31,569 nt of DNA from a virus. Every line of letters begins with the position of its first letter. The first letter of the stretch is position 1. The DNA lies in IMG/VR virus record IMGVR_UViG_3300032285_003799, positions 1 through 31,569 of that record. One strand, 5' to 3'. Position numbers and translations under genes: made by a program. The notes beneath the pieces are model-generated. The model saw nothing but the letters and a program-made list of their open reading frames with translations. It had not been told where the DNA came from and searched no databases. Shown here one piece after another: positions 3,694-29,147 of the stretch.

Positions 3694-3897
3694 TTATTTT
3701 ATTTTATAAGTTTTATCAAAATAATTTTCAGCATCTGCTTTAAAATTTACACCATTAGCCCAACCATTTCTAAATGCTTTAACTATTTCATCATGTTCTT
3801 TTTTAATTAAATCTAAAGATTCTATCATATGTAATACATTAGCATTTAAAATTGGATTTATTTTTAATTTTTCTATTAGTTCTTCTATTGGTGTCAT
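3694..3897 (-). CDS. Small helical protein, 67 aa
   Basis: The product is all-helical and charged, with a C-terminal segment FRNGWANGVNFKADAENYFDKTY that I have seen in short Bacteroidota phage proteins. The same design (IIDAC...Y-F-x-x-T-Y) ends the product of 7309-7085 at the other end of this minus-strand block, so the two may be paralogues. The ATG overlaps the TGA of the preceding gene (ATGA). Function unknown. Confidence 0.6.
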   Translation of the reverse strand: MTPIEELIEKLKINPILNANVLHMIESLDLIKKEHDEIVKAFRNGWANGVNFKADAENYFDKTYKIK

Positions 3898-12730: not shown

Positions 12731-14776
12731 ATGTATAACAAAATAGATGGTGGTAGCATCATAGATATTCAGGGATTGCAATGTAATTTGCCACCAGAAG
12801 GTTATGTGTATAATATAATAACCAAACAAGTAGAATTTAGGGGAGTATATAAAAGGTCTGAAAAAGAATCCGAACAATATTGGAAAAGAATAATGTTACC
12901 AGATTGGTACCAAGATACCATGAAAAAGTGGGATGAGTTTGATAAAAAAAAGAAAGAAGATGATGCTGAATTTTATGATGAAAGATTAGAAGAGTATAAG
13001 AAACAAGAATGGGATAGAAGATTGAATGGGTTTTGGTATATGAATAATGGTAAACCTACTTATTTGACAGGTATGCATTATTTGTATTTGCAATGGTGGT
13101 CAATAGATATTGGTTATCCTAAATTTAGGATTCCAGATTTAGAGAAGTTTTATTTCATGGATTATTGCATACAAGATCCATTATGTATGGGAATGCTTGA
13201 GGTAACTAAGCGAAGATTTGGTAAATCATTTGTTGCTGGTTTATTTGTTACAGAATATACTACAAGGACTAAAATGACAAATGGAGGTATTCAATCTAAA
13301 ACTGGGGCTGATGCAAAAAAATTCTTTGCTAAGACTGTAGTAAATCCATTTAGAAGATTGCCAAAATTCTTTAGACCTGAATATGATATGTCTTTGGGTG
13401 TTAATCCAAAGTCAGAAATGCGTTTCCAAAAAACGAATGTTAGAGGTAAAAAAGCAGAAGAAAATATAGATAAGGATGAATTAGGTTCGGTAATAGATTT
13501 TCAATCAGCTGATTCAGTTGCATATGATGGTCAAAAATTACATAGATATATTGCAGATGAGTGTGGTAAGACTACAGAGGTTAATGTTTATGATAGACAT
13601 GAGGTTGTTCGTTATTGTTTGCTTGATGATGAAGGACAAATAATTGGCAAAGCATTATACACTACAACAGTAGAGAAATTAACTACTGAAAAAGATGGTG
13701 TTCAAGATGCTTTTAAATTATTATGGGAAGAAAGTAATCAAGATAAAAGACAAGAAAATGGTACAACTTCTAGCGGTCTTTATAGGTTTTTTATGTCTGC
13801 AAAACGTACAAGAAACTTTGATGACTTTGGATTCCCAAATGAAGAAAAAACTTTAGAACAGATATTAGCAGATAGAGAAACAGTTAAAAATAATCCAAGA
13901 GCATTATCTGCTCGTATTAGAAAAGAACCATTGACTATTGATGAAGCATTTAGTACAGATGCAGATGGTTGTATTTTTAATGTTTTAAATATAGGACAAA
14001 GAGAAGCTTATTTAAAAGAAAATCCTGTGTTAAAAAGAAAAGTAATATTTTATAGAGATATAGATCAAATTGTAAGATGGAGGGAAGCCTCAGATAAAGA
14101 ACAGGATTTTCATTGGAAAATTACGCAATTCCCACCAAAAGGAGAAGAGAATAAACACACTTTTGATGTAAAATTAAAAAAACCGGATAGAATTGATGAT
14201 GGTGCAATTGCAATTGATGGTTATAGTAATAGTCAAGGTGGTAAATATGGTTCAAAAGCATCAGCTTGGATAGGTAGAAGATATAATTTATTAGATCCTA
14301 AAAATACTGGTAAGGCAATTGGACATCTTTATGGGAGGCCTCAAGTAAAAGAAACATTGCATGAGCAAGTTATGTTAGCTGCTGAATTTTATGGTTATAA
14401 AGCTTGGTATGAGCATAATAGTGATGATTATTTATCATATTTTAGAGATAGGGGTAGAGTTGCATATTTAGGTACATACCCTAAAATATCAATGGATCCA
14501 TCTAAAAAAGATGCTGAAAGATATAAAGGTTTCCCAACTACTCCATTTAGTCTTATGAAACAAACAGATGTAGGTATTATGTATTTTGAACATCATATTG
14601 ATTCTATTGATTTTGAAAATTTATTAGAAGATGCTAAAAAATTTGATCCAAATAATAGAACTGAGTTTGACCAAACAGTGTCATTTTTAATGCTTTTAGT
14701 TTGTTTAATGGAGCCAGTTCAGGTAAAAATAAAGAGAGAACCATTAGTAAAAAGTTATAAACCTAGTCTAATTTAA
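12731..14776 (+). CDS. terL: Terminase large subunit
   Basis: A packaging ATPase-nuclease of 681 residues. The Walker A-like loop TKRRFGKS (159-166) is of the atypical R-rich terminase type; Walker B is RYIADECG (D276, E277), and the coupling motif region LYTTTVEKLTTE follows. The nuclease half begins at AIDGYSNSQGG (D496) and includes the segments YEHNSDDYL and FDQTVSFLMLLVC. The motor cuts and pumps phage DNA through the portal encoded downstream. Length and look agree with terminases of crAss-like and other Bacteroidota podoviruses. Confidence 0.9.
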   Translation: MYNKIDGGSIIDIQGLQCNLPPEGYVYNIITKQVEFRGVYKRSEKESEQYWKRIMLPDWYQDTMKKWDEFDKKKKEDDAEFYDERLEEYKKQEWDRRLNGFWYMNNGKPTYLTGMHYLYLQWWSIDIGYPKFRIPDLEKFYFMDYCIQDPLCMGMLEVTKRRFGKSFVAGLFVTEYTTRTKMTNGGIQSKTGADAKKFFAKTVVNPFRRLPKFFRPEYDMSLGVNPKSEMRFQKTNVRGKKAEENIDKDELGSVIDFQSADSVAYDGQKLHRYIADECGKTTEVNVYDRHEVVRYCLLDDEGQIIGKALYTTTVEKLTTEKDGVQDAFKLLWEESNQDKRQENGTTSSGLYRFFMSAKRTRNFDDFGFPNEEKTLEQILADRETVKNNPRALSARIRKEPLTIDEAFSTDADGCIFNVLNIGQREAYLKENPVLKRKVIFYRDIDQIVRWREASDKEQDFHWKITQFPPKGEENKHTFDVKLKKPDRIDDGAIAIDGYSNSQGGKYGSKASAWIGRRYNLLDPKNTGKAIGHLYGRPQVKETLHEQVMLAAEFYGYKAWYEHNSDDYLSYFRDRGRVAYLGTYPKISMDPSKKDAERYKGFPTTPFSLMKQTDVGIMYFEHHIDSIDFENLLEDAKKFDPNNRTEFDQTVSFLMLLVCLMEPVQVKIKREPLVKSYKPSLI

Positions 14777-14791
14777 TTTTTTTTTAATTAA

Positions 14792-14814
14792 TTTGTTAAT
14801 TTTTGGTATATTTG
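14792..14814 (+). promoter_or_regulatory. Late promoter before portal
   Basis: TTTGTT, two bases, TTTTT, one base and GTATATTTG: the -7 box TATATTTG is at 14807-14814, twenty bases before the portal start. The same layout recurs at 22061-22083 with 20 of 23 bases equal. The upstream TTTG is only 11 bases from the -7 box, not the normal ~19, which hints at a phage-specific promoter class. Confidence 0.55.
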
Positions 14815-14833
14815 ACAACAAAATACAGTTAAA

Positions 14834-17266
14834 TTGGCTTCAAATCCATTAGACATAAATGCATATGACGCAGGTCAAGCATTAAAATCGTTTCAGCTTA
14901 CTACTGATGTTAAATCTAAATCTGATTTAGAATATGGTAGAAAAGTTGCTCAAAATATTTATGCCACAATCTATGGTAATCAAACTTATTTTTGGATAAG
15001 AAATAATAGGTTTAGAAAAAATAGACAGATTGCCAATGGTAAAATTGACATGAGTGTATTTTTAGATCGTTTAGAAATGAATGGCAAAGCTAACTATGTA
15101 AATATAAATTGGAAATCAATTATTATTGGTAATACAATTATAGGAAGATTAGTTAGTTCATGGATGTCAAGAAATGAAAAAATTCAAGTAACTGCTGTTG
15201 ATCCTACATCTGTAAGCAAGAAAAAAGAAGTTGCTGATGATGCAGAATTTATTTTTCAAAACAAAGAAATTCTTGCACATATACAACAAGAATCAGGTGT
15301 TCAAATTATTCCACAAGATCAATTTATTGCAGAAGATAAAGATGATTTAGATATTTGGAGAAGTGAATTTAATAAATTGCCTGAAGAAATTTTATATAGT
15401 TTAGGTGTAAATAATGTATTTGAAGCAAATGGTTGGAATGATGTTCTTAAAGAAAGAATATTACATGATTCAGCTGAAGTTGGATTAGTTTGTACATATA
15501 CATGGATGGATGATGAAGGAGAAATTCATGTTGAATGGATTAGACCTGAAAATGCAATTTATTCTTATTCTGATTATCCTGATTTTAGAGATACTGCATA
15601 TAGAGGTCATATTTCATCAATGAAAATTAGTGAAGTAAGAGCAAGATATGGAAAAGAAAATGGTGGTATATTAACAGAAGAACAAATATTCCAATTAGCT
15701 CAATTTTCAAAAGAATATCAATTAACTGATAAGATTAAATGGATGCAAGATTGGAACATTGCATATTTAAGACCTTATGATGAATGGAATATTGATTTAA
15801 TGAATTTTGAAATTAGAACATTAGATTCAGAAGGATATACTATTACTAAGACTAAGAAGAATGGCAGTACTATAATTAGAAAAGGTAAGCCAGAAAGATT
15901 AGATGAAAATCAAGAATACTTAGAAGAAAAGAAATGGAATATATATAAAGGAGTTTATAACCCAGTTACTAAAACTATGTTAGAATGGGGTATAAAGAAA
16001 AATATGGTACGACCACAAGATCCAAAAGAAATTGGTAATGCGGAGTTTTCATATAGCTTCTATATGTATCAAAATTACGACCAAAGAAACGTTGCTGTAC
16101 CAGAAAAAATAGAAGAACCAATTGAGCAAATGATTTTAGCTAGGTTGAAAATTCAACAAATAGTAGCTAAGATGGTACCAGCAGGTGCTTCTATAGATGT
16201 AGATGCATTACAAGAATTAGATTTAGGTTTAGGAGATTCAGTTAAGCCATTGGATATTCAAAAAATATGGGAACAAACTGGTAAACTTTATTATCGTGGT
16301 AGAGATGCTGAAGGAAATAGAATACCTGTTCCAATTACAGAATTAGCAAATACTGGTTTTGCTCCACAATTAAATGCATTAATTCAATTATATAATTTCC
16401 ATTATCAAGTATTAACACAAGAATTAGGAGTTGATCCTAATCTTATGCAACAAGCATCTCAACCTAGAGTTGCAGCTTCAAATGTTGAAACTTCTAGAAT
16501 ATTAGCTAATGATGCTACTGAATATATGTATGATGCATATATGTATGTAATGGAAGATACGGCAAAAAAAGTTGCATGTTTATTAAATGCAAGTGTTAGT
16601 TATGGATCTAAAAAATATAGAGAATTATTAAAAGAAGATCAAGTAAAAGGTAGAAATTTTACTACAAAATTAAAAATGCTACCTACTGAATTAGAAATTG
16701 CAAATTTGCAAAATATGATGAATCAGGCTATGATTTCAAATCCTAATTTAGTATTATATGTAGATCCATTCAAGGTTATGAGGATAGCTAAAGAAAATGT
16801 AGAATTAGCTGAAGTTTATTTCAGATATGGACAAAAGAAATATATAAAAACTGAACAAGAGAATGCTCAAAATAATAGTCAACAAAATGCACAAATTCAA
16901 CAAGCTAGTTTACAAGCTAAGGCTCAAGGAGATTCTGCATTATTAGATAAGCAAACTCAAGCAAAACAAAGAGAAATAATGTTGCAAGGTATTTTTGATT
17001 TAGCAAAAGCAAATATTCCATTACCTGCTGAATTACAGCCATTGGCACAAGAGTTATTCCAAAATATTGGAATGCCTTTGACTATTGATAATCAACAAGA
17101 GCAAATGATGATTCAACAAATGCAACAACAACAAATGCAGGCTCAACAACAGCAAATGCAACAGATGCAACAACAAGGACAACAAGAACAAGAAGGTCCA
17201 GAAACACAAGAAGGTCAACAAGAACAAGATCAAATGCAACAACAAGAATTACAACCTCAACAATAA
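14834..17266 (+). CDS. Portal protein, TTG start
   Basis: This 810-residue protein sits between terminase and scaffold/capsid, the portal's place. It has the helical, charged core of podovirus portals (EIHVEWIRPENAIYSYSDY wing region, TELANTGFAPQLNALIQLY crown helices). The last ~60 residues are a Gln/Met-rich coiled tail (QQMQQMQQ-type). The dodecameric ring forms the DNA entry channel at one capsid vertex. The only fitting start is TTG at 14834 (MASNPLDINAY); the next in-frame ATG is far inside. Length is close to the ~800 residues of crAss-like portals. Confidence 0.85.
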   Translation: MASNPLDINAYDAGQALKSFQLTTDVKSKSDLEYGRKVAQNIYATIYGNQTYFWIRNNRFRKNRQIANGKIDMSVFLDRLEMNGKANYVNINWKSIIIGNTIIGRLVSSWMSRNEKIQVTAVDPTSVSKKKEVADDAEFIFQNKEILAHIQQESGVQIIPQDQFIAEDKDDLDIWRSEFNKLPEEILYSLGVNNVFEANGWNDVLKERILHDSAEVGLVCTYTWMDDEGEIHVEWIRPENAIYSYSDYPDFRDTAYRGHISSMKISEVRARYGKENGGILTEEQIFQLAQFSKEYQLTDKIKWMQDWNIAYLRPYDEWNIDLMNFEIRTLDSEGYTITKTKKNGSTIIRKGKPERLDENQEYLEEKKWNIYKGVYNPVTKTMLEWGIKKNMVRPQDPKEIGNAEFSYSFYMYQNYDQRNVAVPEKIEEPIEQMILARLKIQQIVAKMVPAGASIDVDALQELDLGLGDSVKPLDIQKIWEQTGKLYYRGRDAEGNRIPVPITELANTGFAPQLNALIQLYNFHYQVLTQELGVDPNLMQQASQPRVAASNVETSRILANDATEYMYDAYMYVMEDTAKKVACLLNASVSYGSKKYRELLKEDQVKGRNFTTKLKMLPTELEIANLQNMMNQAMISNPNLVLYVDPFKVMRIAKENVELAEVYFRYGQKKYIKTEQENAQNNSQQNAQIQQASLQAKAQGDSALLDKQTQAKQREIMLQGIFDLAKANIPLPAELQPLAQELFQNIGMPLTIDNQQEQMMIQQMQQQQMQAQQQQMQQMQQQGQQEQEGPETQEGQQEQDQMQQQELQPQQ

Positions 17267-17278: not shown

Positions 17279-17626
17279 ATGGCAACAGTAGGTAAATTAT
17301 TAATAAGACTTCAAAAATTTAGTTCAAAAATTAGTACAATTGTTGATGCTACTGCATCATTTAATGCAAATGGCAGTTATTATCAAGATTTATCTGGATG
17401 GGACAGTGCCGTAGTGCAATTTGTAAGCCCTTCTGCAACAATTAATTTTTCAACTACAAATGATAATGGTTCAATTAATGGTGAATTATTACCAGCTCCA
17501 CAAGTACCTATTAACTGGGTTACAGTTTTAGGTGTAGATTTAACAACCAAAACTGATGTATCATCAATCTCGGCTAGTGGAATAGTTGAATTTGGTATTA
17601 TTGGTCAATATTTACAATTTAGTTAA
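17279..17626 (+). CDS. Small beta-rich virion protein, 115 aa
   Basis: The sequence is Ser/Thr/Asn-rich with few charges and alternates short strands (YYQDLSGWDSAVVQFVSP, INWVTVLGVDL, SGIVEFGIIGQYLQFS). It lies twelve bases after the portal and before a Thr-rich display protein. This is compatible with a head decoration or fibre component; no family recognised. Confidence 0.55.
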   Translation: MATVGKLLIRLQKFSSKISTIVDATASFNANGSYYQDLSGWDSAVVQFVSPSATINFSTTNDNGSINGELLPAPQVPINWVTVLGVDLTTKTDVSSISASGIVEFGIIGQYLQFS

Positions 17627-17644: not shown

Positions 17645-18331
17645 ATGTCAAATTCAATAGCATATTTATTATCTAGGAATACATACCCAGATGCTTGGCA
17701 AGCAAATAGAATTGGTGTTACTCAAGGTACACAAGTAGTTTATGCAACAACTAGTTCTTTAACATCTGCAAATAAATTATATGCAGATAGTAAATTAACT
17801 TTGCCAATTACTGGTGATGGTACAAGTTTTTATGGAATTCAATTGTGGACTAATCCAGCAGTTCTTTATGCAATTACAATTAATTATTTAGGTGTTATTA
17901 CTGTAAGTTCTAACCCAACTACAACTACAACATCGACTACATCAACAACAACTACAACTGCTGCTCCAACTACAACTACAACTGCTGCACCTACGACTAC
18001 CACTACAGCTGCTCCAACAACAACTACAACTGCTGCTCCGACTACGACTACAACAACATTAATTGCACCATATTCATATAAAATAAGTTCAAATTCTGCA
18101 ATTGATCAAGGAACAGCTTGTGCAGATGGATTTGGAGGCGGAACAATAACGGTTTATGCATCTACAAGCAATGGTGCATTAGTTACCAGATTCTATACAA
18201 ATGCTATACTTACTATTCCATTTGTTGGTAATGGTAGTGCTTATTCATTTATGTACAATTATCCAACAGGAACTGCATATGCTGCATTTGTAAGTCCTAC
18301 AGGTAATGTAACAGCAACTATAGCTTGTTAA
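17645..18331 (+). CDS. Two-domain display protein with Thr-rich linker
   Basis: The 228 residues hold two beta domains joined by a Thr-rich stalk (residues 91-138) made of repeated TTTTTAAP units. The domains are related: VYATTSS...KLYADSKLTLPITGDG in the first and VYASTSN...RFYTNAILTIPFVGNG in the second, so the gene arose by domain duplication. No signal peptide. Position next to the portal and scaffold suggests a head fibre or decoration; the stalk would hold the outer domain off the capsid. Similar Thr linkers occur in the 1360-residue protein. Role inferred, not shown. Confidence 0.65.
   Translation: MSNSIAYLLSRNTYPDAWQANRIGVTQGTQVVYATTSSLTSANKLYADSKLTLPITGDGTSFYGIQLWTNPAVLYAITINYLGVITVSSNPTTTTTSTTSTTTTTAAPTTTTTAAPTTTTTAAPTTTTTAAPTTTTTTLIAPYSYKISSNSAIDQGTACADGFGGGTITVYASTSNGALVTRFYTNAILTIPFVGNGSAYSFMYNYPTGTAYAAFVSPTGNVTATIAC
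17915..18058 (+). repeat. Thr-linker DNA repeats, copy 1
   Basis: Repeats of a 24-base unit encoding TTTTTAAP, four units with mostly ACT/ACA codons. The DNA is repetitive enough to allow slippage or recombination. Comparable stretches occur at 25697-25789 and 28118-28216. Confidence 0.8.
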
Positions 18332-18337
18332 AATATT

Positions 18338-18370
18338 ATAACCACCAGGTATAAATTGCCTGGTGGTTAT
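18338..18370 (+). other. Perfect 12-bp hairpin between display and scaffold genes
   Basis: ATAACCACCAGG (18338-18349) and CCTGGTGGTTAT (18359-18370) form a perfect stem with a nine-base loop. No T-run follows on either strand, so it is probably not a simple intrinsic terminator; transcript processing or partial attenuation before the scaffold gene is possible. Confidence 0.6.
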
Positions 18371-18400
18371 TAAATAAAAATAGAAACCAAATTAGCATTT

Positions 18401-19570
18401 ATGCCAGATAATAACGCAGCAGAACCAATCACAGGTTTTGCAGATGGCTTCAATCCGTTTTCGGATGAAATTTATGTACCAAAAGTAGAAGAAGCCCCTA
18501 CTCAAAATGTAGAAAATACTCAGGTACAACAAGAAAATGTACAAAATGTACAAGAAAATGTACAAGAAAGTGTACATACAGAAGAACAGCAAACAAACAC
18601 ATTTGATCCTAATCAATTCATAAAAGAAAGATTTGGATTTAATAGTGTAGAAGAAGCTGAAGAAGAATTCAAGAAAATTAAGGAAAAAACTTCTGAAATT
18701 GATTTTGAATTTCAAGATAATGTAAGTAAAACATTATTTGATGCAATCAAAGAAGGTAAAACTGATGATGTTTATCAAGTTTTAAATCAGCAAAAAAGAT
18801 TAGAAAAATTAACTACAGCTGAATTAAATACTGAATTAGCAGTAGAAATTGTTAAAGAAAATCTTAAACAGAAGCATAAAGAATTAAATGATGAGGAAGT
18901 TGATATTTTATTTTATGACAAATTTTATGTACCTTTAAAACCAGAACAGGGATTTGATGAAACTGATGAGGATTATGCTAATAAAGTAAAGAATTGGGAA
19001 GCCCAAGTTAACTATACTGAAAAGAAGTTAATGATTGAGGCTAAAACAACTAGATCTGAATTAGAAAAGCTTAGAAGTGAAATTAAATTACCAGATATTT
19101 ATAATGAGGCTGGCAGACAAGCAGAATATCAAGCAGAATTTGAAATGATGCAACAAGCTAGGTCGATTTATGAAAAAACACTTGAATCTGATTTTAAATC
19201 ATTTAATGGATTTAATATTTCGGTAAAAGACGAGGATGTCGAAATACCGATTTCATTTAATGTAGGAGATGATGAGAAATTAGCTATTAAAAGTCAATTA
19301 GAAGATTTTGATAGCGATAATTATTTTGAGAACAGATGGTTTGACAAAGATGGTAAACCTAATGTTAAACAAACAATGCAAGATCTTTATTTGTTAGAAA
19401 ATTTTGACAAAATTGCCAAAAAAATAGCAAATGAAGCTGCTGCTCAAGTTAAATTATCTTATATCAAAAATTCTGGAAATGTGACTTTAAACAAACAAAT
19501 GCCACAAGGTAGGCCTACTCAAAGTAATAGTTCAGCATTTGAAGATTTACAAAAAGCAGTGTGGTCATAA
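18401..19570 (+). CDS. Capsid scaffold protein candidate
   Basis: A highly charged, largely helical 389-residue protein directly before the major capsid gene, the standard scaffold position. The N-terminus (FADGFNPFSDEIYVP) is followed by a VQENVQ repeat region (residues ~42-58), then acidic helices and coiled coil (NYTEKKLMIEAKTTRSELEK), with a C-terminal end IKNSGNVTLNKQMPQG. Scaffolds guide capsid assembly and leave or are cleaved. No protease gene was recognised in the window. Assignment from position and composition. Confidence 0.7.
   Translation: MPDNNAAEPITGFADGFNPFSDEIYVPKVEEAPTQNVENTQVQQENVQNVQENVQESVHTEEQQTNTFDPNQFIKERFGFNSVEEAEEEFKKIKEKTSEIDFEFQDNVSKTLFDAIKEGKTDDVYQVLNQQKRLEKLTTAELNTELAVEIVKENLKQKHKELNDEEVDILFYDKFYVPLKPEQGFDETDEDYANKVKNWEAQVNYTEKKLMIEAKTTRSELEKLRSEIKLPDIYNEAGRQAEYQAEFEMMQQARSIYEKTLESDFKSFNGFNISVKDEDVEIPISFNVGDDEKLAIKSQLEDFDSDNYFENRWFDKDGKPNVKQTMQDLYLLENFDKIAKKIANEAAAQVKLSYIKNSGNVTLNKQMPQGRPTQSNSSAFEDLQKAVWS
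18524..18576 (+). repeat. Short TGTACA-type coding repeats
   Basis: GTACA recurs at 18524, 18539, 18548, 18560 and 18572 with spacings of 15, 9, 12 and 12, all in frame, encoding the VQENVQ run of the scaffold. Most likely a protein-level repeat grown by slippage. Confidence 0.5.
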
Positions 19571-19580
19571 CTTGTTTATT

Positions 19581-19593
19581 GCTTTGGCAAAGC
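19581..19593. promoter_or_regulatory. 13-bp palindrome before the capsid gene
   Basis: GCTTTG, G, CAAAGC is a perfect palindrome 25 bases before the capsid ATG, preceded by TTGTTTATT. Its left half (TTGCTTTG) is close to a -7 box. It could be a promoter, an operator or an mRNA 5' stabilising stem; the sequence cannot decide. Confidence 0.35.
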
Positions 19594-19617
19594 GTTTAAA
19601 ACAAAAATTATAACAAA

Positions 19618-21042
19618 ATGGCAAGCGGTCCAGGAATACCAACTTCAAACATTTTGCAACCGGGTGCAATATCCCTCCAGTCGCAAAACCGTCAACTAAT
19701 GGTTGACTTACAATTATTAACTCCTCAATATTACAAGCAATATACTGAAAAGTATGGTAATGAAGATTTCACATGGTGGTTAGCTGCCCATGCTGGAATG
19801 GAGGAAGTAAAAAACCAAAATTTCTTCTGGTTTGAGAACAGAGGTAAATTAATGGTTGCTGTAGTAAACAACTCTACAGTATCAGCTCCAGTTGACACTA
19901 ATATTACATTAACTTTAAATTCAGAGGCTTACTATAACAATGGTACAGAATCTCCATTAAGAGTTGGTGAAACTTTGCGTGTTGCTTCTTCTAACATTGA
20001 AGGTAAAATCTTATCAATTGATACAACTACTCCATATGCATTTACATTTGTAGTAGCACCATTATTAGCAACACAAGGATTTACTTCTGCTGGAAGTACT
20101 TCATTATTAGCTGGTGAGGTTTTATTATTTGGTGGTGATACAGATGCTGGTGAAGCTTCAACTCAAATTAACCCATTAATCCATTTGGATCAGAAGTATA
20201 ACAACAACATCACTCAAATTCGTGATGGTTGGAGTAATACTGACTTAGCTCAAATGGCTGAAACATACTATGAGTACCCAGTATCTGCTGATATGGCTGC
20301 TAATGGTGTAACTGCGTTTACTTACAAAGGTATGTATAAGACTCTTGTTCGTTTCAAAAATAACGTAGAAGCAAAATTAATGCGTGGTAATTTGCAAACT
20401 AACAATGCAAATGGTATGACTAACTCTCAAGGTGCTCAAGGTATTATTCCTAAAGTAGTAGCTGATGGCGAAACTGTAGGTTATACTGCAGGTAACTTAG
20501 ACATCCAAAAATTACACGAAATTACTCGTATTATGGATGTTAATGGTTGTGCTAAACAATCTGCATGGTTATCTGATGTATTCCAAAAGCAAGATTTCTC
20601 TGATGGTATCTTCGCAGCTTACCCTGCTGGTGCTTTCGTATATGGAACTGGTGAAAAGTCTAAAGAGGCTTCAGTTGCTTACGGATTCCAAGAAATCTAC
20701 ATTGACGGTTATTTATTAAACGTTAAGAAATATAGCCAATTCAATACTGAAGTAACAACAGGTTTAACTCCTCAAAATGATTACTTCCGTAATTTTGGTT
20801 TGATTTATCCAATGGGTGAATCTAAAGATGCTAGAACAGCACAAGCTTACAAAAATATCACTATCATGTATCAAGAACCACCTCAAGGAGGAACTGTTGG
20901 TAATGGTATCAGAGTATGGCAATATGGTGGTGGATCTCCAAACCCAACTGACGGAACAATGACTAATCAAATCGCAATGATTACTTACCGTTCAACTCGT
21001 GTTTGTGCAGCAAACCAATTCATCATTGTACAAGCTAACTAA
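19618..21042 (+). CDS. Major capsid protein
   Basis: This 474-residue protein follows the scaffold and has the look of a crAss-like/HK97-type capsid: helical N-arm (QNRQLMVDLQLLTPQYY), FTWWLAAHAGMEEVKNQNFFW, an inserted beta-rich part (residues ~75-175), then the core with YYEYPVSADM and YKTLVRFKNNVEAK, and a conserved end (AMITYRSTRVCAANQFII). Its codon use differs from its neighbours: mostly CGT for Arg instead of AGA, and more C-ending codons, as for a highly expressed gene. It is followed by its own strong terminator. Confidence 0.88.
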   Translation: MASGPGIPTSNILQPGAISLQSQNRQLMVDLQLLTPQYYKQYTEKYGNEDFTWWLAAHAGMEEVKNQNFFWFENRGKLMVAVVNNSTVSAPVDTNITLTLNSEAYYNNGTESPLRVGETLRVASSNIEGKILSIDTTTPYAFTFVVAPLLATQGFTSAGSTSLLAGEVLLFGGDTDAGEASTQINPLIHLDQKYNNNITQIRDGWSNTDLAQMAETYYEYPVSADMAANGVTAFTYKGMYKTLVRFKNNVEAKLMRGNLQTNNANGMTNSQGAQGIIPKVVADGETVGYTAGNLDIQKLHEITRIMDVNGCAKQSAWLSDVFQKQDFSDGIFAAYPAGAFVYGTGEKSKEASVAYGFQEIYIDGYLLNVKKYSQFNTEVTTGLTPQNDYFRNFGLIYPMGESKDARTAQAYKNITIMYQEPPQGGTVGNGIRVWQYGGGSPNPTDGTMTNQIAMITYRSTRVCAANQFIIVQAN

Positions 21043-21065
21043 TTAGTATAGTACATAAATAAAAT

Positions 21066-21096
21066 GGTGGGGGTAATTTTACCTCCACCTATTTTT
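21066..21096 (+). terminator. Strong terminator after the capsid gene
   Basis: GGTGGGGGTAA (21066-21076) pairs with TTACCTCCACC (21079-21089) with one G-T wobble, followed by TATTTTT. It would cut transcription after the capsid gene and keep downstream expression lower. Confidence 0.8.
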
Positions 21097-21115
21097 AACA
21101 TTAAAAAAACCATTT

Positions 21116-22003
21116 ATGGCAAAGTTAAAGGCAGCGGGTTTATCTGATGTCTTCTCTTATGAGAATGAAGTACTTAGAGAAAATAGACAATTTGAAGAAT
21201 CCCAATCAGCACAGTCTGGTTCGGTTCAAAATGGAGTAACTTATAAGATTTATAAGTTAACAGATACAACAAAAAAAGGCAAATACCACATGGAAGGCGT
21301 GGATGATGTATGGAATCCAGATAAAAAAAGAATGGAAAGAATTAGGTTATTAAATGGATTTCCTAGCTTATCAATGGATGAACAAAAACATTTAGATAAA
21401 CTTTATGTTGAAAAAAACAGAAGAAGTCTAGTTTTTGATGCTAGAATATTAAGAGTTCCAGATTGGGACACATCTGCAATTGAATTTTTAGAAAAAAGTA
21501 ATGCTAATATTGATAATCCTAATAAAAAAGGAACTAGAAAATTAACATTCTTTCAGTGGAATCCGCATCGTCAAGCTGAATTAGAACGTAAAAAACGTAT
21601 TGCAAAAGTTGAGGCAATCAAATTTGCAAGTATGGCTTCTACAGATGAGATGAGGAAACATGCTAACTACTTAGGAATTAATTTTGTAGATGAATTAGGT
21701 TTCCCTAAATCTGACGAAGCATTAAGAAATGACTATGAATTATATGCTGAAGCTCAACCTAATAAGTTTATGCAAAGTGCTGGATCTAAAGAAGTTGAAG
21801 TAGCATATATAGTTAAAAAAGCAATTTTAGATAATAAAATTGATTTACATTCTAAAAAAGGATCTGCATATTGGGCAGGTGACGGTGGATTCATATGTAG
21901 AATACCCGGAACTGAAAAAGCTAAAGATTATTTAGTTGAATATGCAATGCTTCCTAATGATGAAAGTAAGCAATTTTTAGAACAATTGAAGAAATTGCAA
22001 TAA
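21116..22003 (+). CDS. Unknown 295-aa virion-cluster protein
   Basis: The gene starts twenty bases after the capsid terminator. The product is charged, with a helical N-terminus (DVFSYENEVLRENRQFEES), a Tyr-Lys beta part (GVTYKIYKLTDTTKKGKYH), a helical basic segment (HRQAELERKKRIAKVEAIK) and a mixed C-terminus. No domain is recognised. Location right behind the capsid gene suggests an auxiliary head or assembly protein. A terminator follows its stop. Confidence 0.6.
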   Translation: MAKLKAAGLSDVFSYENEVLRENRQFEESQSAQSGSVQNGVTYKIYKLTDTTKKGKYHMEGVDDVWNPDKKRMERIRLLNGFPSLSMDEQKHLDKLYVEKNRRSLVFDARILRVPDWDTSAIEFLEKSNANIDNPNKKGTRKLTFFQWNPHRQAELERKKRIAKVEAIKFASMASTDEMRKHANYLGINFVDELGFPKSDEALRNDYELYAEAQPNKFMQSAGSKEVEVAYIVKKAILDNKIDLHSKKGSAYWAGDGGFICRIPGTEKAKDYLVEYAMLPNDESKQFLEQLKKLQ

Positions 22004-22031
22004 TATTGATTCTACCCCTCTAAATAAAATC

Positions 22032-22063
22032 GCCCTGTAGCCTAAAAATTACGGGGCTTTTTT
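22032..22063 (+). terminator. Terminator after 21116-22003
   Basis: GCCCTGTA (22032-22039) pairs with TACGGGGC (22050-22057), one wobble, then TTTTTT. The T-run doubles as the upstream part of the next promoter (22061-22083). Confidence 0.75.
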
Positions 22064-22083
22064 GTTTCTTTTTCGTATATTTG
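22061..22083 (+). promoter_or_regulatory. Late promoter of the connector/tail operon
   Basis: -7 box TATATTTG at 22076-22083, 17 bases before the ATG at 22101, with TTTGTT and TTTTT upstream at the same spacing as in the portal promoter (20 of 23 bases equal). It begins the operon of connectors, GroES-like protein and muzzle. Confidence 0.55.
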
Positions 22084-22100
22084 GGTAACAATTTATATAC

Positions 22101-22811
22101 ATGAATATTAATGATATGTATCAAATATGCCAATATGCTATTAACAAAGCACAAAATGGATATTTGACACCTTCTCAATTTAATTTATTAGCAAATCAAG
22201 CTCAGACGAGCTATATGGATTATTTATTAGGTGAATTTCAACAATATCAATATGGAAGGCCACAAGCTAGAGTTAATTATAGTCAAAATAGTGATACAAG
22301 ACAAAGAGTTGCTCCATTTATTTTATTGACAACATTAAATCCAGATGCAGATGGATTCGTTGCTTATCCAGCTGATTATATACAAACTGATTCAATAAGA
22401 ACATCTAATAATAATAGAATTAGATTTGTTCAACAAGATAGTTTATATTCATATTTAACAAGTGAAATAGATCCAATTGTTACAAATCCAATTTATTTAA
22501 TAAGTGATGCTGGGTATAGATTTTATCCAAATACAACAGATAATAATGTATCATTAGCTAATTTAAAACTTAGTTATATTAAAAATCCTCCTACAATTAT
22601 TTGGGGATATAACTTAGACGGAAATGGAAGGCCAGTATATAATCCAAATCCATATAACCCTAGTACGCAACCAACAGGTAGTGTACAACCATTATGGTAT
22701 GATATTGATAAATTAGAAATCGTTGCTAGAATATTAAAATTAGTTGGTGTTAGCTTACAAGATGGCCAAATCCAACAATATGCTAACATGGTAACCACTC
22801 AAGGACAATAA
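22101..22811 (+). CDS. Head-tail connector/ring protein candidate
   Basis: A 236-residue product, with a helical start (INDMYQICQYAINKAQNG, then LTPSQFNLLANQAQTSYMDY) and a beta-rich middle (APFILLTTLNPDADGFVAYP), ending in helices (LEIVARILKLVGVSLQDGQ). Such a design fits the ring or adaptor proteins that stack under the portal in podoviruses. It overlaps no gene and is one base from 22813. Assignment rests on gene order and fold-like pattern. Confidence 0.6.
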   Translation: MNINDMYQICQYAINKAQNGYLTPSQFNLLANQAQTSYMDYLLGEFQQYQYGRPQARVNYSQNSDTRQRVAPFILLTTLNPDADGFVAYPADYIQTDSIRTSNNNRIRFVQQDSLYSYLTSEIDPIVTNPIYLISDAGYRFYPNTTDNNVSLANLKLSYIKNPPTIIWGYNLDGNGRPVYNPNPYNPSTQPTGSVQPLWYDIDKLEIVARILKLVGVSLQDGQIQQYANMVTTQGQ

Positions 22812-22812
22812 A

Positions 22813-23445
22813 ATGACAAGAAAAATATTTATAGAAAGAATATTAAGGCAAATATATAATGGACAGCCTAATGATGATTCTAGTATTACATTTAATCAAG
22901 TTAACCAATGGTTAAATGATGCTATTGGCATAGCTGCTAAAAAAAATTATACTGATAGCGTTCAATTAGATGGTATTGCTTATGTAAATAATTCATTTTA
23001 TACAACTTACACTAATTTAAATATAGCAGCTGAATCAGTAGATAATGTTACATATTCTGTAAAGCTTCCGCAAATACCTTTTGCATTAGGAAAAAATGAA
23101 GGTGTAGCAACTTTACAAATTGTAGGAGATAAGAAAACATCGCAAACTGCCATACCTCTTAGTATTAATCAAGTTGGATATATTGATAATTTAAGACCAA
23201 TTCAAAATAAAATACTTTATTGGATTGAAGGTAATAACATATATGCAAAGAGTTCAATACCTTTGACATCATATAAGGCAACTTTAAGAATGATAAGTGG
23301 TGGGGATTCTTCAAATTTAGAATCTACTTTAATTGTGCCAGATGATTATGTGCCAATAATTGTAGAATATATTAAAGGTCAATTATCATTTGAAAGGTCA
23401 AGACCAATAGATCAATCAAATGATGGTATTGATAATGCAAACTAA
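22813..23445 (+). CDS. Second head-tail connector/ring protein candidate
   Basis: The 210-residue product starts RKIFIERILRQIYNGQPNDD with a helix pair, then SFYTTYTNLNI and a beta barrel, ending in a helix (DYVPIIVEYIKGQLSFERS) typical of phage adaptor proteins. It lies in the connector operon just before the GroES-like gene. Probable partner of the products at 22101 and 23732. Confidence 0.6.
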   Translation: MTRKIFIERILRQIYNGQPNDDSSITFNQVNQWLNDAIGIAAKKNYTDSVQLDGIAYVNNSFYTTYTNLNIAAESVDNVTYSVKLPQIPFALGKNEGVATLQIVGDKKTSQTAIPLSINQVGYIDNLRPIQNKILYWIEGNNIYAKSSIPLTSYKATLRMISGGDSSNLESTLIVPDDYVPIIVEYIKGQLSFERSRPIDQSNDGIDNAN

Positions 23446-23456
23446 AAACTATATAT

Positions 23457-23729
23457 ATGAAACCAATTAGAGATTTTATTTTAGTAAAACCATGCGAACC
23501 TGACACTGTTACAGAAGGTGGTCTTTTTATACCTACTACTGCTATGTCAAGAAATAATAGAGCAACTGTAGTTGAGGTTGGTAGAGGAACAGCTAAAATA
23601 AAAATGGAAGCAAAAAAAGGTGATATGATAATTCATATTAAAAATGCTGGGGAAGAGGTTATAATTAATGGAGAACAACATTTTTTAATTCGTCAAATGG
23701 ATATTTTATCTTACGTTTCAAATAATTAA
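23457..23729 (+). CDS. GroES-like co-chaperonin
   Basis: Ninety residues with the cpn10 pattern: KPIRDFILVKP, a mobile-loop-like TVTEGGLFIPTTAM (residues ~16-32), RATVVEVGRGT, GDMIIHIKNAGEEV and a closing IRQMDILSYV. Phage co-chaperonins such as T4 gp31 replace host GroES so the large capsid protein can be folded. Here it lies among the connector genes, not beside the capsid gene. Length is typical for GroES. Confidence 0.85.
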   Translation: MKPIRDFILVKPCEPDTVTEGGLFIPTTAMSRNNRATVVEVGRGTAKIKMEAKKGDMIIHIKNAGEEVIINGEQHFLIRQMDILSYVSNN

Positions 23730-23731
23730 AT

Positions 23732-24508
23732 ATGGCATCACAAGAAAGACAATTTATAACTGTTGACTCAATCATCAATGACTATCTTGATGAATCTGAG
23801 CAAAGCGTTCATAAATATGCCAAACTTTATAATATAGCTTATAGAGGTATGGAAAGATTAGGACTTGATTTCTTTTATAAAATTAAGTCAGTAAAATTGC
23901 CAGTTGACACTACAAACTATACAGTACAATTACCAAATGATTATATTAGTTATACTAAAATAGGAGTATTAAATGCAGTAGGACAAATTATACCTTTGCA
24001 ATTTGATAGAAAATTAACATTTTTTGGTGACCAATTGCCAAATAGACAAGCATTAACTGATGATGATACATTAGTTAACTGGAATCAAATATATAACGCA
24101 CCAATATTTTATAATTATTGGGATGGGTATGGATTTACTAATATTTATGGTTATCCTAGTGGTTCTCCATTTGTAGGTTCATTTAATATTGATGATGCAA
24201 ATGGTGTGATATTACTTAATCAAGAGTTTTATTATGATTACTTAATGATTGAATATTTATCAAGTCCAAATCCAGATGAGAAATATATGATTCCATTACA
24301 GTTTAGGGAAGCTTTATTGGCTTGGATTGCATGGAGAGATATAGCTACAATGCCAAGTAATAGAAAAGGAAATCTTGGAGATAAGAGAGATAGAAAACAA
24401 GAATTTTTCAATCAGAGAAGATTAGCTAATGCACAGTTTAAACCTATGTATTTAGATCAAGCTTATGAATGGAATTTAATTAATCAAAGAATGACAGTTA
24501 AGGGATAA
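23732..24508 (+). CDS. Tail tube/adaptor-type protein
   Basis: The 258-residue product has a helical head (VDSIINDYLDESEQSVHKYA), beta core (VKLPVDTTNYTVQLPNDYIS), a Tyr/Gly-rich insert (YNYWDGYGFTNIYGYPSG) and a helical basic C-terminal part (FREALLAWIAWRDIATMPS). The pattern (N-terminal helices, PNDY turn, C-terminal helices) fits T7 gp11-like tail adaptors. It starts two bases after the GroES-like stop and ends three before the muzzle-like gene. Confidence 0.6.
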   Translation: MASQERQFITVDSIINDYLDESEQSVHKYAKLYNIAYRGMERLGLDFFYKIKSVKLPVDTTNYTVQLPNDYISYTKIGVLNAVGQIIPLQFDRKLTFFGDQLPNRQALTDDDTLVNWNQIYNAPIFYNYWDGYGFTNIYGYPSGSPFVGSFNIDDANGVILLNQEFYYDYLMIEYLSSPNPDEKYMIPLQFREALLAWIAWRDIATMPSNRKGNLGDKRDRKQEFFNQRRLANAQFKPMYLDQAYEWNLINQRMTVKG

Positions 24509-24511
24509 TAT

Positions 24512-27500
24512 ATGCCAGTAATTAACAACCCTTTTAATGGTAAGTTGAATCTTGATGTTGCTGATTATCGTATAGATAACAATGACTATATAGATGCTTT
24601 AAATATAACTAAAGATGCACAAGGTGTAGGTCAAGATAGAGTTGTATCAAATATCTTAGGTAATACATTAATACCATATACATTACCAAGTGGAACAAAT
24701 AAAATAATTGGTTTTTATCCTGATAAGGTAAGAAATAGAGGTTATTACTTTCTTTGGAATAGTAACGGATATAATTCTATTTTATATTTAAATTTAGATA
24801 CAAATAGTGTTGTAAAGATATTGGTAAGTAAAACGGATAGCAATGGAATTGATATTTTAAATTTTAATCCATCTTTTAAAGTTTTATCTGTAAATATATT
24901 TTATAGAGATATAGAAGGTGATTTATTATTTTTTAATGATGGATTAAATCCTCCTAAAGTAATTAATGTTTCTGAAACACATGGAACATCATGGAAATAT
25001 GAATATTTGTTAGTTGCAAAGGCACCTCCACAGATGCCTCCAAAAGTAGTTTATGAAAATGATTCACAAGTTAAAGTTAATAATTTAAGAAACGTATTAT
25101 TTCAATTTTGTTACAGGTTTGTTTATCAAAACAATGAAAAATCTGTATGGAGTTCAAAAAGTATTGTTCCACTTCCTCAGCAACCAACAGTTAATTTAAC
25201 AGATTACAATATAACATATAATTCTAGGATTTCTGTTTCGGTTTCAACAGGTGATTTAGTAGTAAAAAAAATTGAAATTGCTTTTAGGGAAACAACTAAT
25301 GATACTACAAGTGATTGGTATTTAATTTCTTCTTTTAATAAATTAGAATTTAATATACCAAATAATGATATTTTTACATATAAGTTTTATAATGATAGTA
25401 TATATAATCCAGTAGATGTTATTGATATGTCCCAATTACAAGATTGGGTACCTCAAAGAGCAAATGCTGGTGAACTTGCAAATGGTAACGTTTTATTATA
25501 TGCTGGTATAACTGAAGGTTATGATAAAACAAAAATGAATTTAGTTTCTTCTGCTCAAAGAGAATTGCCTCCTTATTTTTTTGATAAATGTGGTTTATTG
25601 TTTTTTGCAGCAAGTAATGGAGTTGATAGTGGTGTGATTAGTACAAGAATGAAAGTATTTGTTTTTGGAACAGTAAGTGATATTTCACCTATTATTACTA
25701 CTACAACTACAAGTAGTCCTACTACCACTACTACTAGTGGACCGACAACTACTACAACTGCAGGTCCCACTACAACAACTACAACCACAATTGGTCCACA
25801 AGGATTAAATAATCCAGATGGTATATATGTTATAAATGCTATAAATAATAGTGGAACAAGTATTGGTATATCATATAACTATTCAACTAATTTAGGGATT
25901 AGCATTAATTCATTATTGACAAATATATCTTCAGCATTACAAGTTAATGGATGGACACAAATTGGACCTATTAATGACAATTATGTTGAGATGGAATATA
26001 CCAATGGTTTTACATTATTATCAAGTGGTGTAAAATTGAATGGATATTCAAGAGATAATACAGTATTTGCAAATTCGTGGGATTCTGGTTATCAGTATGC
26101 AATTCAATATTTTGATAGTGTTGGAAGAACAATAGGTGCACAAACTAGTTTAGATGCTAGTTTTAATACACCTTCAAGTAATGGATATAAATATCCAACT
26201 ACATTATTACAAATTAAAAATAGACCACCATTAGAAGCTGTTTATTACCAAATTTTAAGATCAAATAATACAACGTATAATAAAAGATTATTTTGGATTA
26301 GTAATAGTGCTTATAGAAGTGTTACATCATTAAATCCATTTGCAATAGGTGATATTGAAGGGTTTGCATATATTTCACTAGATAATATTGATGTATATAA
26401 TAAACAAATTAGTTCTACAGCATCAGTTGTATCTTATTCATATGCTCCGGGAGATAGAATTAGATTTATCAAGAGATTTGATGCAGAAAATAATCCAATA
26501 TCATTTAATACTAATGTAGTATATGATTATGAAATTTTAGGTACAGTTTCTTCAATAGTTACACCAAGTAGCAATAAAATAGGTAATTTTATAAAAATAA
26601 AATATCCTAAAGCAGATATAGATGCAAATAGCTCAAATTTTAATTTTGATGGTGATTTGAACTTTTTACATTATGAAATATTTTTATATAATTTTACAAA
26701 TAATGCATCAGGTACTCAAAGAACATTTTATGAATTTGGTAAATGTTTTGGTATAGGAAATCCAGGAACAAACTTAGCATATCATATTGGATTAGAGCAA
26801 ACTCAATCTGCAACTAATCCTGAAAGTGTACCTGCATATATTTCATGTACTAATGGAGATTTGTTTTATAGAACTAGAAAAGTAATTTCAACTTACGATT
26901 ATATTTATGATGCTGGAAATCAAGATGTAAAAACAGCAAATAATGTTGCTGGTGGGTGGGTTGCTATATTAAATTTAACAATAAAACCGGATCAAAATCC
27001 TTTAGGTAATTCAACTAATTTTGAATTACATAATCAACAAGCTTCTGATGCAATTCCAACATATAATATTCTTCCGGGATATTATCCAACTTCTTATACT
27101 GATACAAATGAATATTTGTTTTGGAATAAATCAACTACTAATAACATTGTAATTAATTTAAATTTTACAGGTAGGGCAACATATGATACAACTAATATTT
27201 TTTTAAATCAAGTTTTATTTTATATATACTATTTAGATATTAATAATGTAAAAAGATATAATGAAATTTATATTTCAAATACTATAAGTGGAACTGGATC
27301 TTTATTTGAATGTAAAGATTGGTTAGTGTCTGTACCACCTACAACTAAAGTTATGATTGGAGTTAGTGGTGGTTCAATAGGGCAAGATATTTCAGCTACA
27401 TTAAATATATTTGATTTTAATATATCTGTATATAATTATAATACTATAGATATTATTGAATCTAGTTTTAGTGATAATTATAATTTAGTTACAAATAGTA

Positions 27501-28594
27501 ATGGAAGGCCATCTGTAATTGATGAAAATGCAAGTAGAAAATATTTCCCAACAACAATAAGATTTGGACAAGCATATCAATTTAATACAAATATAAATGG
27601 ATTAAATAGATTTTATTTTGAGAATTTTGATGACTATGATAGAAGTTTTGGTGATGTGATTCGTTTGCATGTTAGAGATAGATATTTGAAAGTTTATCAA
27701 AAATTTAAAGTAGGTAATGTTCCTATTTTAACTCAAATCGTAAAAGATAGTGCAAACAACCCATTACAAGCTAATACGGATAAGTTAATTAATAAAATTC
27801 AATATTACGCTGGTGATTATGGTATTGGGGATGCTGCTACAAGTTTAGCTTGGAATAACTTTTCAGATTATTTTGTAGATAATTATAGAGGTGTTGTATG
27901 TAGATTAAGTCAAGATGGTATAACTCCATTGAGTATTATTTATCATACTAATGCATTTTTTGTTCCTAAATTAGCCGAATATAATCAAGAGTTAAATAAT
28001 GGAATTCCTGCAGATGGTCAAGTTTATACTGGTAATCCTTGTATTTATGGTATTTTTGATGCTTATACAAATAAGTATATTATAGCAATGGAGGAAATTA
28101 ATAGATATGAATTAGCTACAACTACAACTACAACTATACCTCCTACAACAACTACAACAACTTCTACAACGACTACTTCTACAACAAGTACCACAACAAC
28201 TACAACAACTACAACTTTATCTCCTCAAATAAGTATATATTTTACTCCATTTGATAAAACTTTTACAATTTTATCAAATAGAACAGTACCTCAATCTGTA
28301 TTTGTAGGAGCTTTATCTGTAGATGGGTACCCAAATAATTCTTGTGGTGCAGGTACTTCAATTGCAGGAGCTACATTAACTGGTGGGGTTCTTGGTTTAA
28401 ATGCTGGTGGTACGGTAGATACCAGATCTTCTGTTTATTCTGGTACTTGGGGAACTACTACTCCCTATAGTTTTTCTTCTCCTAATATTAGTTTGAGTAT
28501 TAATGGCGGTGGTTATACATCTTATTCTAATGGAAATACAGTTACAATATCCGGAATTACATTCACTATATTAATTGGTAAAACTTGTTTATAA
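24512..28594 (+). CDS. Tail stabilization/muzzle-like protein with Thr-linked inserts
   Basis: The 1360-residue product begins with FNGKLNLDVADYRIDNNDYI and LNITKDAQG, the start of the 'stabilization protein' of crAss-like and T7-like tails (nozzle type). A Thr-rich linker (396-426) leads to a domain (~427-530) before the core continues with YQYAIQYFDSVGRTIGA. A second linker (1203-1235) carries a C-terminal beta domain (~1236-1360, Gly/Ser-rich with few cysteines). The core closes the tail channel; the inserted and terminal domains probably face outward and may touch the host. It is the longest gene of the window. Confidence 0.75.
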   Translation: MPVINNPFNGKLNLDVADYRIDNNDYIDALNITKDAQGVGQDRVVSNILGNTLIPYTLPSGTNKIIGFYPDKVRNRGYYFLWNSNGYNSILYLNLDTNSVVKILVSKTDSNGIDILNFNPSFKVLSVNIFYRDIEGDLLFFNDGLNPPKVINVSETHGTSWKYEYLLVAKAPPQMPPKVVYENDSQVKVNNLRNVLFQFCYRFVYQNNEKSVWSSKSIVPLPQQPTVNLTDYNITYNSRISVSVSTGDLVVKKIEIAFRETTNDTTSDWYLISSFNKLEFNIPNNDIFTYKFYNDSIYNPVDVIDMSQLQDWVPQRANAGELANGNVLLYAGITEGYDKTKMNLVSSAQRELPPYFFDKCGLLFFAASNGVDSGVISTRMKVFVFGTVSDISPIITTTTTSSPTTTTTSGPTTTTTAGPTTTTTTTIGPQGLNNPDGIYVINAINNSGTSIGISYNYSTNLGISINSLLTNISSALQVNGWTQIGPINDNYVEMEYTNGFTLLSSGVKLNGYSRDNTVFANSWDSGYQYAIQYFDSVGRTIGAQTSLDASFNTPSSNGYKYPTTLLQIKNRPPLEAVYYQILRSNNTTYNKRLFWISNSAYRSVTSLNPFAIGDIEGFAYISLDNIDVYNKQISSTASVVSYSYAPGDRIRFIKRFDAENNPISFNTNVVYDYEILGTVSSIVTPSSNKIGNFIKIKYPKADIDANSSNFNFDGDLNFLHYEIFLYNFTNNASGTQRTFYEFGKCFGIGNPGTNLAYHIGLEQTQSATNPESVPAYISCTNGDLFYRTRKVISTYDYIYDAGNQDVKTANNVAGGWVAILNLTIKPDQNPLGNSTNFELHNQQASDAIPTYNILPGYYPTSYTDTNEYLFWNKSTTNNIVINLNFTGRATYDTTNIFLNQVLFYIYYLDINNVKRYNEIYISNTISGTGSLFECKDWLVSVPPTTKVMIGVSGGSIGQDISATLNIFDFNISVYNYNTIDIIESSFSDNYNLVTNSNGRPSVIDENASRKYFPTTIRFGQAYQFNTNINGLNRFYFENFDDYDRSFGDVIRLHVRDRYLKVYQKFKVGNVPILTQIVKDSANNPLQANTDKLINKIQYYAGDYGIGDAATSLAWNNFSDYFVDNYRGVVCRLSQDGITPLSIIYHTNAFFVPKLAEYNQELNNGIPADGQVYTGNPCIYGIFDAYTNKYIIAMEEINRYELATTTTTTIPPTTTTTTSTTTTSTTSTTTTTTTTTLSPQISIYFTPFDKTFTILSNRTVPQSVFVGALSVDGYPNNSCGAGTSIAGATLTGGVLGLNAGGTVDTRSSVYSGTWGTTTPYSFSSPNISLSINGGGYTSYSNGNTVTISGITFTILIGKTCL
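25697..25789 (+). repeat. Thr-linker DNA repeats, copy 2
   Basis: Encodes TTTTT units separated by SSP, SGP, AGP in the muzzle-like gene. The minus strand shows a Val-rich spurious frame, a by-product of the repeat. Confidence 0.8.
28118..28216 (+). repeat. Thr-linker DNA repeats, copy 3
   Basis: Encodes a Thr/Ser run with IPP and single Ser breaks, before the C-terminal domain of the muzzle-like protein. Codons are mostly ACA/ACT/ACC, so the DNA remains repetitive. Confidence 0.8.
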
Positions 28595-28595: not shown

Positions 28596-29147
28596 ATGGC
28601 CGCAGTATTAACATATCATCAAGATCCATTTACTATTTCATTTGATGAGGTAGGAAATGCTTTTGAATCATTTTATTCATATTATCCAGAATTTTATGGG
28701 TGTTTGAATACTAATTTATTTTCATTTAAAAATGGACAAATTTGGATTCATTCAAATAGTAGCACATTTTGTAATTTTTATGGTGTACAATATGGAGCAT
28801 CAATTACTACTGTATTTAATCAAGCTAATATTAATAAAAAAACATGGATTTCTGTAGCTGAAACATCTAATATAGTATGGGAATGTCCATTAATATATAC
28901 TCAAATGAATAGTTATGATACTCAAAGGCAAGAAAGTGAGTTAAAAGAGGTAGATTTTGTTACTTTGGAATCAACATATAATGCATCTTTCTTAAAAGAT
29001 AAAAATAGTCAAGGTGGTTTAATTGAAGGAAGTTCATTAAAAGGAGGTTATATTGTTGCAAAATTTGAGAAAACTAATGCAAATTCTTTCGTATATTTGA
29101 ACAATGTAGGAATTAAGTATATAGATTCTCCATTAAATATAAGATAA
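28596..29147 (+). CDS. Virion protein, 183 aa
   Basis: I use ATG 28596 (MAAVLTYHQDPF), one base after the stop of the previous gene; an upstream in-frame TTG would overlap that gene and has no support. The product (FDEVGNAFESFYSYYPEFYG, LNTNLFSFKNGQIWIH, FCNFYGVQYGASI) matches a type of short structural protein that follows the stabilization protein in Bacteroidota podoviruses, with an end GGYIVAKFEKTNANSFVYLN. Exact part of the virion unknown. Confidence 0.65.
   Translation: MAAVLTYHQDPFTISFDEVGNAFESFYSYYPEFYGCLNTNLFSFKNGQIWIHSNSSTFCNFYGVQYGASITTVFNQANINKKTWISVAETSNIVWECPLIYTQMNSYDTQRQESELKEVDFVTLESTYNASFLKDKNSQGGLIEGSSLKGGYIVAKFEKTNANSFVYLNNVGIKYIDSPLNIR

Follow-up and report, generated by a model that had tools for sequence, protein, structure and literature searches.

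What role do threonine-rich stretches play in the structural genes of an uncultured freshwater phage? The question is raised by the IMG/VR record IMGVR_UViG_3300032285_003799, of which positions 1-31,569 were analysed as a whole (31,569 nucleotides, hereafter "the window") and in which two different late genes hold three Thr-rich linkers (Table 1). The first-pass annotation had described these stretches as linkers between exchangeable domains in two different virion proteins. The linkers proved to be real and correctly placed, and they do lie in two genes; one encodes a muzzle-like tail-tip protein and the other a 228-aa protein, whose place in the virion is suggested by gene order. Considering the evidence below, it is probable that the Thr stretches are modular joints, at which small outer domains come, go and change as units with the core left intact.

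Table 1. Features of the window discussed in the text, in order of position.
Feature	Position	Strand	Remarks
Candidate YqaJ-like exonuclease	4241-4960	-	E 0.005, below Pfam cut-off; possible recombination function
NinG-like recombination protein	5812-6354	-	E 8e-15
Single-strand binding protein	10316-10654	+	E 2.5e-16
115-aa upstream protein	17279-17626	+	no Thr tail in the window; bare Thr tail in 22/33 scored loci
228-aa head-side protein	17645-18331	+	N-terminal domain, Thr linker, second domain; between portal and scaffold-like/MCP genes
N-terminal beta-rich domain	17645-17914	+	conserved in relatives; predicted model with pLDDT of about 92
Thr-rich linker 1	17915-18058	+	residues 91-138 of the 228-aa ORF 17645-18331; 24-nt tandem period (PTTTTTAA)
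Exchangeable second domain	18059-18328	+	of the N-terminal-domain family; absent in the nearest genome L026
14-bp stem-loop	18338-18370	+	directly 3' of the stop codon; -22.9 kcal/mol, z -5.4
1360-aa muzzle/nozzle-like tail-tip protein	24512-28594	+	conserved core and variable joints
Thr-rich linker 2	25682-25798	+	residues 391-429 of the 1360-aa ORF 24512-28594
Thr-rich linker 3	28115-28216	+	residues 1202-1235 of ORF 24512-28594; at the conserved core end (KYIIAMEEINRYEL)
C-terminal exchangeable orphan domain, 125 aa	28217-28591	+	strand-rich but unreliable model, pLDDT 32
Detached C-terminal part of the muzzle protein	28596-29147	+	forms the constant right border of the array

The domains connected by linker 1 are related, as had been proposed: in a single-sequence search of 10,293 ORFs the second domain of the 228-aa protein matched the first with an i-E value of 1.1e-4, and with 6.9e-22 after iteration. 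Linker 3 carries, again as proposed, a C-terminal domain, for which no relative was found in anything searched; neither degenerate patterns in viral contigs nor tblastn in cultured phages gave relatives of this orphan domain or of the second domain of the 228-aa protein. Pfam models, Ig-like, BACON and PKD included, had no match among the domains of the window or the relatives' domains tested, and the exchanged domains represent families absent from Pfam and PHROGs. AlphaFold models of the second domain and of the orphan domain were unreliable; only the N-terminal domain of the 228-aa protein was well predicted, and a fold search with this domain returned no PDB fold match; predicted proteins of Cellulophaga phage phi17:1 and of uncultured phages were matched weakly.

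Linker 2 had been thought to precede a domain inserted in the muzzle core, an idea that was rejected, since the residues that follow it (QGLNNPDGIYVIN...) align with conserved core that is present in linker-less relatives. At the same site four relatives (L029, L030, L031 and L043) have a linker, about 77 aa and a further linker, and the other relatives have nothing; the flanks of this insert (I-S-D-I-P-P ... I-A-P-[SN]-Q-G-L-N-N-P) match those of the window (V-S-D-I-S-P ... I-G-P-Q-G-L-N-N-P). Linker 2 of the window is thus an empty joint, whether its domain was lost or it was never filled.

By gene content the genome nearest to the window is L026 (MCP 95%, portal 91% and detached muzzle part 93% identical; 84-88% at the nucleotide level). 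The identity between the two breaks off 58, 6 and 6 nt ahead of linkers 1, 2 and 3 (at 17857, 25676 and 28109, respectively) and resumes at 18366, 25997 and 28613. Homology between 14006 and 29146 is interrupted by four gaps, of which three are near the linkers and the fourth corresponds to the divergent centre of the muzzle gene, and random placement of three linkers gave this agreement in 2.8e-4 of the trials (P = 2.8e-4). Since gaps are found at all three linkers, exchange is visible in the window itself, beyond the relatives.

The muzzle-like protein was found at 42 IMG/VR loci, mostly with 53-63% identity, and these relatives have retained the order of the genes between the large terminase subunit and those that come after the muzzle. 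Cultured relatives are more distant; they comprise Cellulophaga phages (Pervagoviridae, Pachyviridae) and the Flavobacterium Elemovirus, none of which is placed in Crassvirales in the records. A profile of the muzzle protein built from 11 relatives matched gp44, the muzzle protein of Bacteroides phage crAss001, with 27.7 bits (N-terminus 20.4, C-terminus 14.1), and hhalign supported the C-terminal part with 76% probability, which indicates remote homology to gp44-type muzzles; a full search of PDB with the profile gave no match. Thr linkers are present in nearly all uncultured relatives and absent from the two cultured ones examined. The core is followed by zero to seven further segments, so that the length of complete muzzle ORFs varies between 1196 and 2053 aa. 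Other genes of the window include a GroES-like Cpn10 gene inside the virion gene block (23457-23729) and, near the left end, a histidine-phosphatase-like gene (2722-3303) and a DUF5856 gene (901-1419).

The relatives were compared for domain shuffling, as the first-pass annotation had suggested, and stable domain content was not observed; exchange at the linkers is strongly supported, both here and between the window and L026. Muzzle cores may be 90-97% identical, yet the C-terminal arrays of these near-identical phages differ, as in L029/L031 (core identity 97%), L043/L030 (95%; the array of L030 is cut by the contig end), L040/L019 (94.5%), L036/L021 (94%), L016/L036 (93%) and others. In the first of these pairs nucleotide identity is 96% before the linker and from the stop codon onwards, the arrays between being largely unalignable; similarly, L006 and L034 are 93.9% identical (nt) up to the linker and 97.9% past the stop, with unrelated terminal domains between. 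Single-domain differences, with a linker on both sides of the domain, distinguish L038 from L036 and L016 from L021. In about 20 close pairs with linkers in both members, which are not independent and represent a handful of clades, the left break lies inside both linkers in 16 and a few residues off in the rest, and downstream identity is mostly back within about 50 nt of the muzzle stop.

Conversely, the same domain is found on different cores. The terminal domains of L006 and L020 are identical over 270/270 nt in proteins with cores of 57.5% identity, L005 and L043 share a domain with 95.4% nt identity on cores that are 63% identical, and the L005 domains are altogether 88-95% identical (nt) to those of L007 and L043, at core identities of 63-65%. 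The exchange between genes that had been proposed is borne out as well. One domain family occupies three gene positions, namely the slot of the 228-aa protein, the muzzle C-terminus and a post-muzzle ORF: the family of the window's second domain also provides the C-terminal domains of the muzzle of L017, L018 and L035 and of their post-muzzle ORF. In L033 a stretch of 107 nt without mismatch (95% over 129 nt) is common to the muzzle linker and to the linker tail of a second gene, which lies about 650 bp downstream, and in L003, a 98.7% relative of L033, the same linker pair matches over 44 nt only; as both flanks are intact in L033, this looks like linker DNA copied between two genes of one genome. 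These two loci, together with L025 and L032, carry two additional small ORFs (about 13820-14830), which have Thr linkers or Thr tails, between the muzzle gene and the detached part.

On the head side, four states of the 228-aa slot were seen in the relatives, i.e., the N-terminal domain by itself, followed by a bare Thr tail, followed by linker and second domain, or fused to the 115-aa protein, and at least 13 changes of state were counted on the MCP tree (38 loci). The fused state, a 209-216-aa ORF with no Thr stretch, was observed in L014, L015, L026, L041 and L044 (about 3230-3935). The portal protein of the window ends in a long Gln-rich repeat (QQQMQQ; 17087-17266), a second low-complexity tail of this gene block. 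A stem-loop follows the stop codon in 5/5 loci with linker and domain (the window, L011, L020, L032 and L039) and in 0/29 others (Fisher 3.6e-6); L032 was counted as a carrier although its stem is imperfect, was missed by the automatic scan and folds at -10 kcal/mol. These stem-loops vary in sequence between carriers and, unlike a classical terminator, are not followed by a T-run.

The locus L006 documents how a domain may leave. Its MCP and N-terminal domain are identical to those of L020, its slot protein ends in a bare Thr tail, and this tail precedes the loop and the right arm only of the stem-loop (remnant at about 3885-3905). Given the half stem-loop and the identity to L020, the second domain of L006 was most likely deleted, with the junction within the linker and the loop, leaving a scar, and at least this bare tail would then be a joint that lost its domain. 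An origin of Thr-tail endings from assembly or frameshift errors was rejected because of clean stops and of the presence of the next gene in many contigs.

The right border of the muzzle array is explained by a split of the gene. In L042, an outgroup, and in L044 the core end (KYIIAMEEI) runs straight into a domain that corresponds to the separate ORF 28596-29147 of the window, and the same region lies near the muzzle end in Cellulophaga phage phi40:1 (E 3e-20) and in elemoF (E 1e-11). Remotely, it also matches residues 1194-1283 of crAss001 gp44 (25.6 bits). Sequence similarity thus identifies this ORF as the detached C-terminal part of the muzzle, and L042, L044 and the cultured Flavobacteriia phages have the two in fused form; the loci listed with this observation are the window, L042, L044, L164 and L165. 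The fused form in the outgroup and in cultured phages, together with the gp44 match, suggests that fusion is probably ancestral; the split is where the Thr-linker array is located. Core and C-terminal part are 13-28 nt apart where fused and 195-2753 nt apart where split, with 509 nt in the window, and the split arrangement provides exchanges with a fixed, conserved right border. In gp44 the IG2/crass insertion comprises residues 318-1021 (PMC10172136); as the matching region of gp44 lies beyond this insertion, the detached part probably belongs to the propeller.

Taken as modular joints, the Thr stretches would be flexible linkers that do not fold, situated where virion proteins expose an end or a loop at the surface. 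They are placed at three or four sites of the virion gene block: the ends of the 115-aa and 228-aa proteins, a loop of the muzzle core, and the split between core and detached part. On the left side crossover would take place in short repeated ACN-rich linker DNA, and on the right side in a conserved neighbouring gene or another linker, through annealing functions of the phage or recombination by the host. Annealing-type recombination, which these phages may encode, could make use of the short direct repeats present, and the single-strand binding protein, the NinG-like protein and the weak YqaJ-like candidate of the window are compatible with such a system. The position of the domains suggests that they could be adhesins touching the cell or the environment, in which case the joint would diversify binding. 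A phage particle can in this way change its outer parts with the core untouched, and fixed core, standard joint and interchangeable domains together give an account of how uncultured phages akin to Flavobacteriia phages could renew their surface.

A further step, which we propose tentatively and at somewhat less than even odds, is that a single Thr-linker wording at several sites of the virion block acts as shared homology that moves whole outer domains between genes and phages, with a head-side cassette format of linker, domain, stop and stem-loop, and with the gap of the split tail-tip gene as landing site. Of the idea that repetitive linker DNA serves as homology for swapping, the exchange itself is well founded, and the homology role is one that we infer, with linkers in the window matching over 14-17 nt only. 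Their DNA had been thought alike in its own right, and this did not hold: the longest exact matches between them are 14, 17 and 17 nt, against 15.4, 15.8 and 15.6 nt expected from synonymous redraws. A special DNA similarity among these linkers was rejected on this basis. Their mutual similarity is what common amino acids and codon use yield, indicating that DNA homology is not specially maintained. Excess internal repetition was detected in linker 1 only (a 25-nt exact repeat, P about 0.03), where the tandem repeat has a 24-nt period and 5.7 copies. Identical Thr codons stand next to each other slightly less often than expected (z -3.2); selection for repeat DNA would have the reverse effect, and this counts against a dedicated homology role.

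These results on the DNA bear on the main alternative, in which the linkers are merely permissive spacers: recombination would be random or driven by the flanks, and the survivors would be broken in a linker since the protein still folds there, with linker DNA taking no part. We regard this as a serious possibility, though short of an even chance. Apart from the agreement with the synonymous null, it is favoured by right borders that have no linker, being placed at the stop codon or at the conserved gene downstream, and by five relatives (L008, L014, L022, L026 and L044) that have no Thr linkers at the muzzle end, yet vary there, with other short repeats or none. The muzzle C-termini of four of these (L026, L008, L022 and L014) carry the short repeat CxFNGGxA. 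On the other hand, the linker copy in two genes of L033 and the clean gain or loss, from linker to linker, of a single domain in L038/L036 and L016/L021 are not expected from spacers alone. Permissive spacing and linker homology may also hold together.

According to a second alternative, which appears unlikely, the Thr stretches are functional themselves, as mucin-like and possibly O-glycosylated stalks or brushes on which the domains are secondary passengers. The motif TTTTTAAPTTTTT was found in at least 119 stretches of viral contigs, the wording PTTTTTAAP being recurrent in many of them. Among the unselected motif matches listed, a bare Thr tail with no domain after it closes an ORF at 45/118 loci, which fits with stalks, and more than one linker ORF occurs at 33/118. 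The Mucin model (PF01456) was matched weakly, with 18.6 and 16 bits, but these scores are below the curated cut-off of 34.7. The D-(S/T) sequon of Bacteroidota O-glycosylation is absent from the three Thr stretches of the window, which contain no Asp, as the first-pass annotation had correctly noted. Moreover, a dedicated glycosyltransferase is not conserved, GT2 being found in one of the 20 related contigs, although glycosylation by the host is possible, and the tail of L006 reads as the scar of a deleted domain. The two GT2 matches concerned lie in the first 1.2 kb of the L027 contig. A stricter codon form of the motif is present in 16 of the 119 viral stretches listed, and a search of all cellular genomes in the collection yielded three stretches, two from Ruminococcus; as the two scans differ in strictness and the viral count is a lower bound, only the direction of this contrast is meaningful. 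A phage-like Thr-linker ORF was also seen in a MAG titled Rickettsia typhi (CAMCQG010000011.1), a bin name that is doubtful. Whatever their function, Thr joints offer an easy marker for rapidly exchanged outer domains in metagenomic phages.

The relatives compared are all assembled from metagenomes, where repeats may lead to misassembly, so that the apparent shuffling could be an artefact of repetitive linker DNA. The contigs of L011 and L030 terminate within linkers, and a few linkers contain exact repeats of 50-107 nt. However, the longest exact linker matches are mostly 13-15 nt (median 14 nt within one contig and 13 nt between contigs), rarely long enough to mislead assemblers, arrays recur in separate metagenomes with both flanks intact, and the stem-loop accompanies the domain and is missing where the domain is, all of which make this explanation very improbable. 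Finally, variation of the outer domains by a diversity-generating retroelement, in which the hairpin just downstream of the variable domain would mark the target site, a known feature of such targets, is close to refuted by the absence of a reverse transcriptase (RVT_1) from 20 related contigs of up to 69.6 kb and by whole-domain replacement in place of point changes.

The preferred reading, that of modular joints, can be set beside several known systems. One is the repeat-mediated shuffling of adhesins of the gp38 or collagen-repeat kind, with which the present case shares exchange borders at low-complexity spacers in an outer virion protein. In the gp38 adhesins of the T4 superfamily, located at the tail tip, a conserved low-complexity spacer alternates with variable binding segments, glycine-rich motifs being set between hypervariable segments (PMC12529663; PMC8651126, citing Trojet 2011). 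The spacer motifs of gp38 belong to one folded tip, whereas here unfolded Thr linkers join independent domains, in several virion proteins and with variable domain number. The antireceptors of Streptococcus thermophilus phages likewise have repetitive linkers, collagen-like repeats, between distinct domains and a variable host-range region (PMC5601072); these repeats are found in a single described gene, and the linkers of the window are Thr runs.

Modular Ig-like and BACON adhesins are known from crAss-like and Flandersviridae-type gut phages. The domains considered here differ from them in lacking any Pfam Ig-like, BACON or PKD match, and a Thr joint is not described for those adhesins in the consulted passages of the paper on them. 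With gp44 of Bacteroides phage crAss001 the muzzle-like protein shares gene position and size class, and it resembles gp44 remotely in the N-terminal region and at residues 1194-1283; length variation of muzzles by insertion has been reported (PMC10172136). Unlike gp44, which is one chain, the gene in the window is split at the array, with the C-terminal part as a separate ORF. A description of Thr-rich joints in phage virion proteins was not found in a literature search that largely covered non-subscription journals. The shuffling at Thr joints is a variant of the already known shuffling of adhesin domains.
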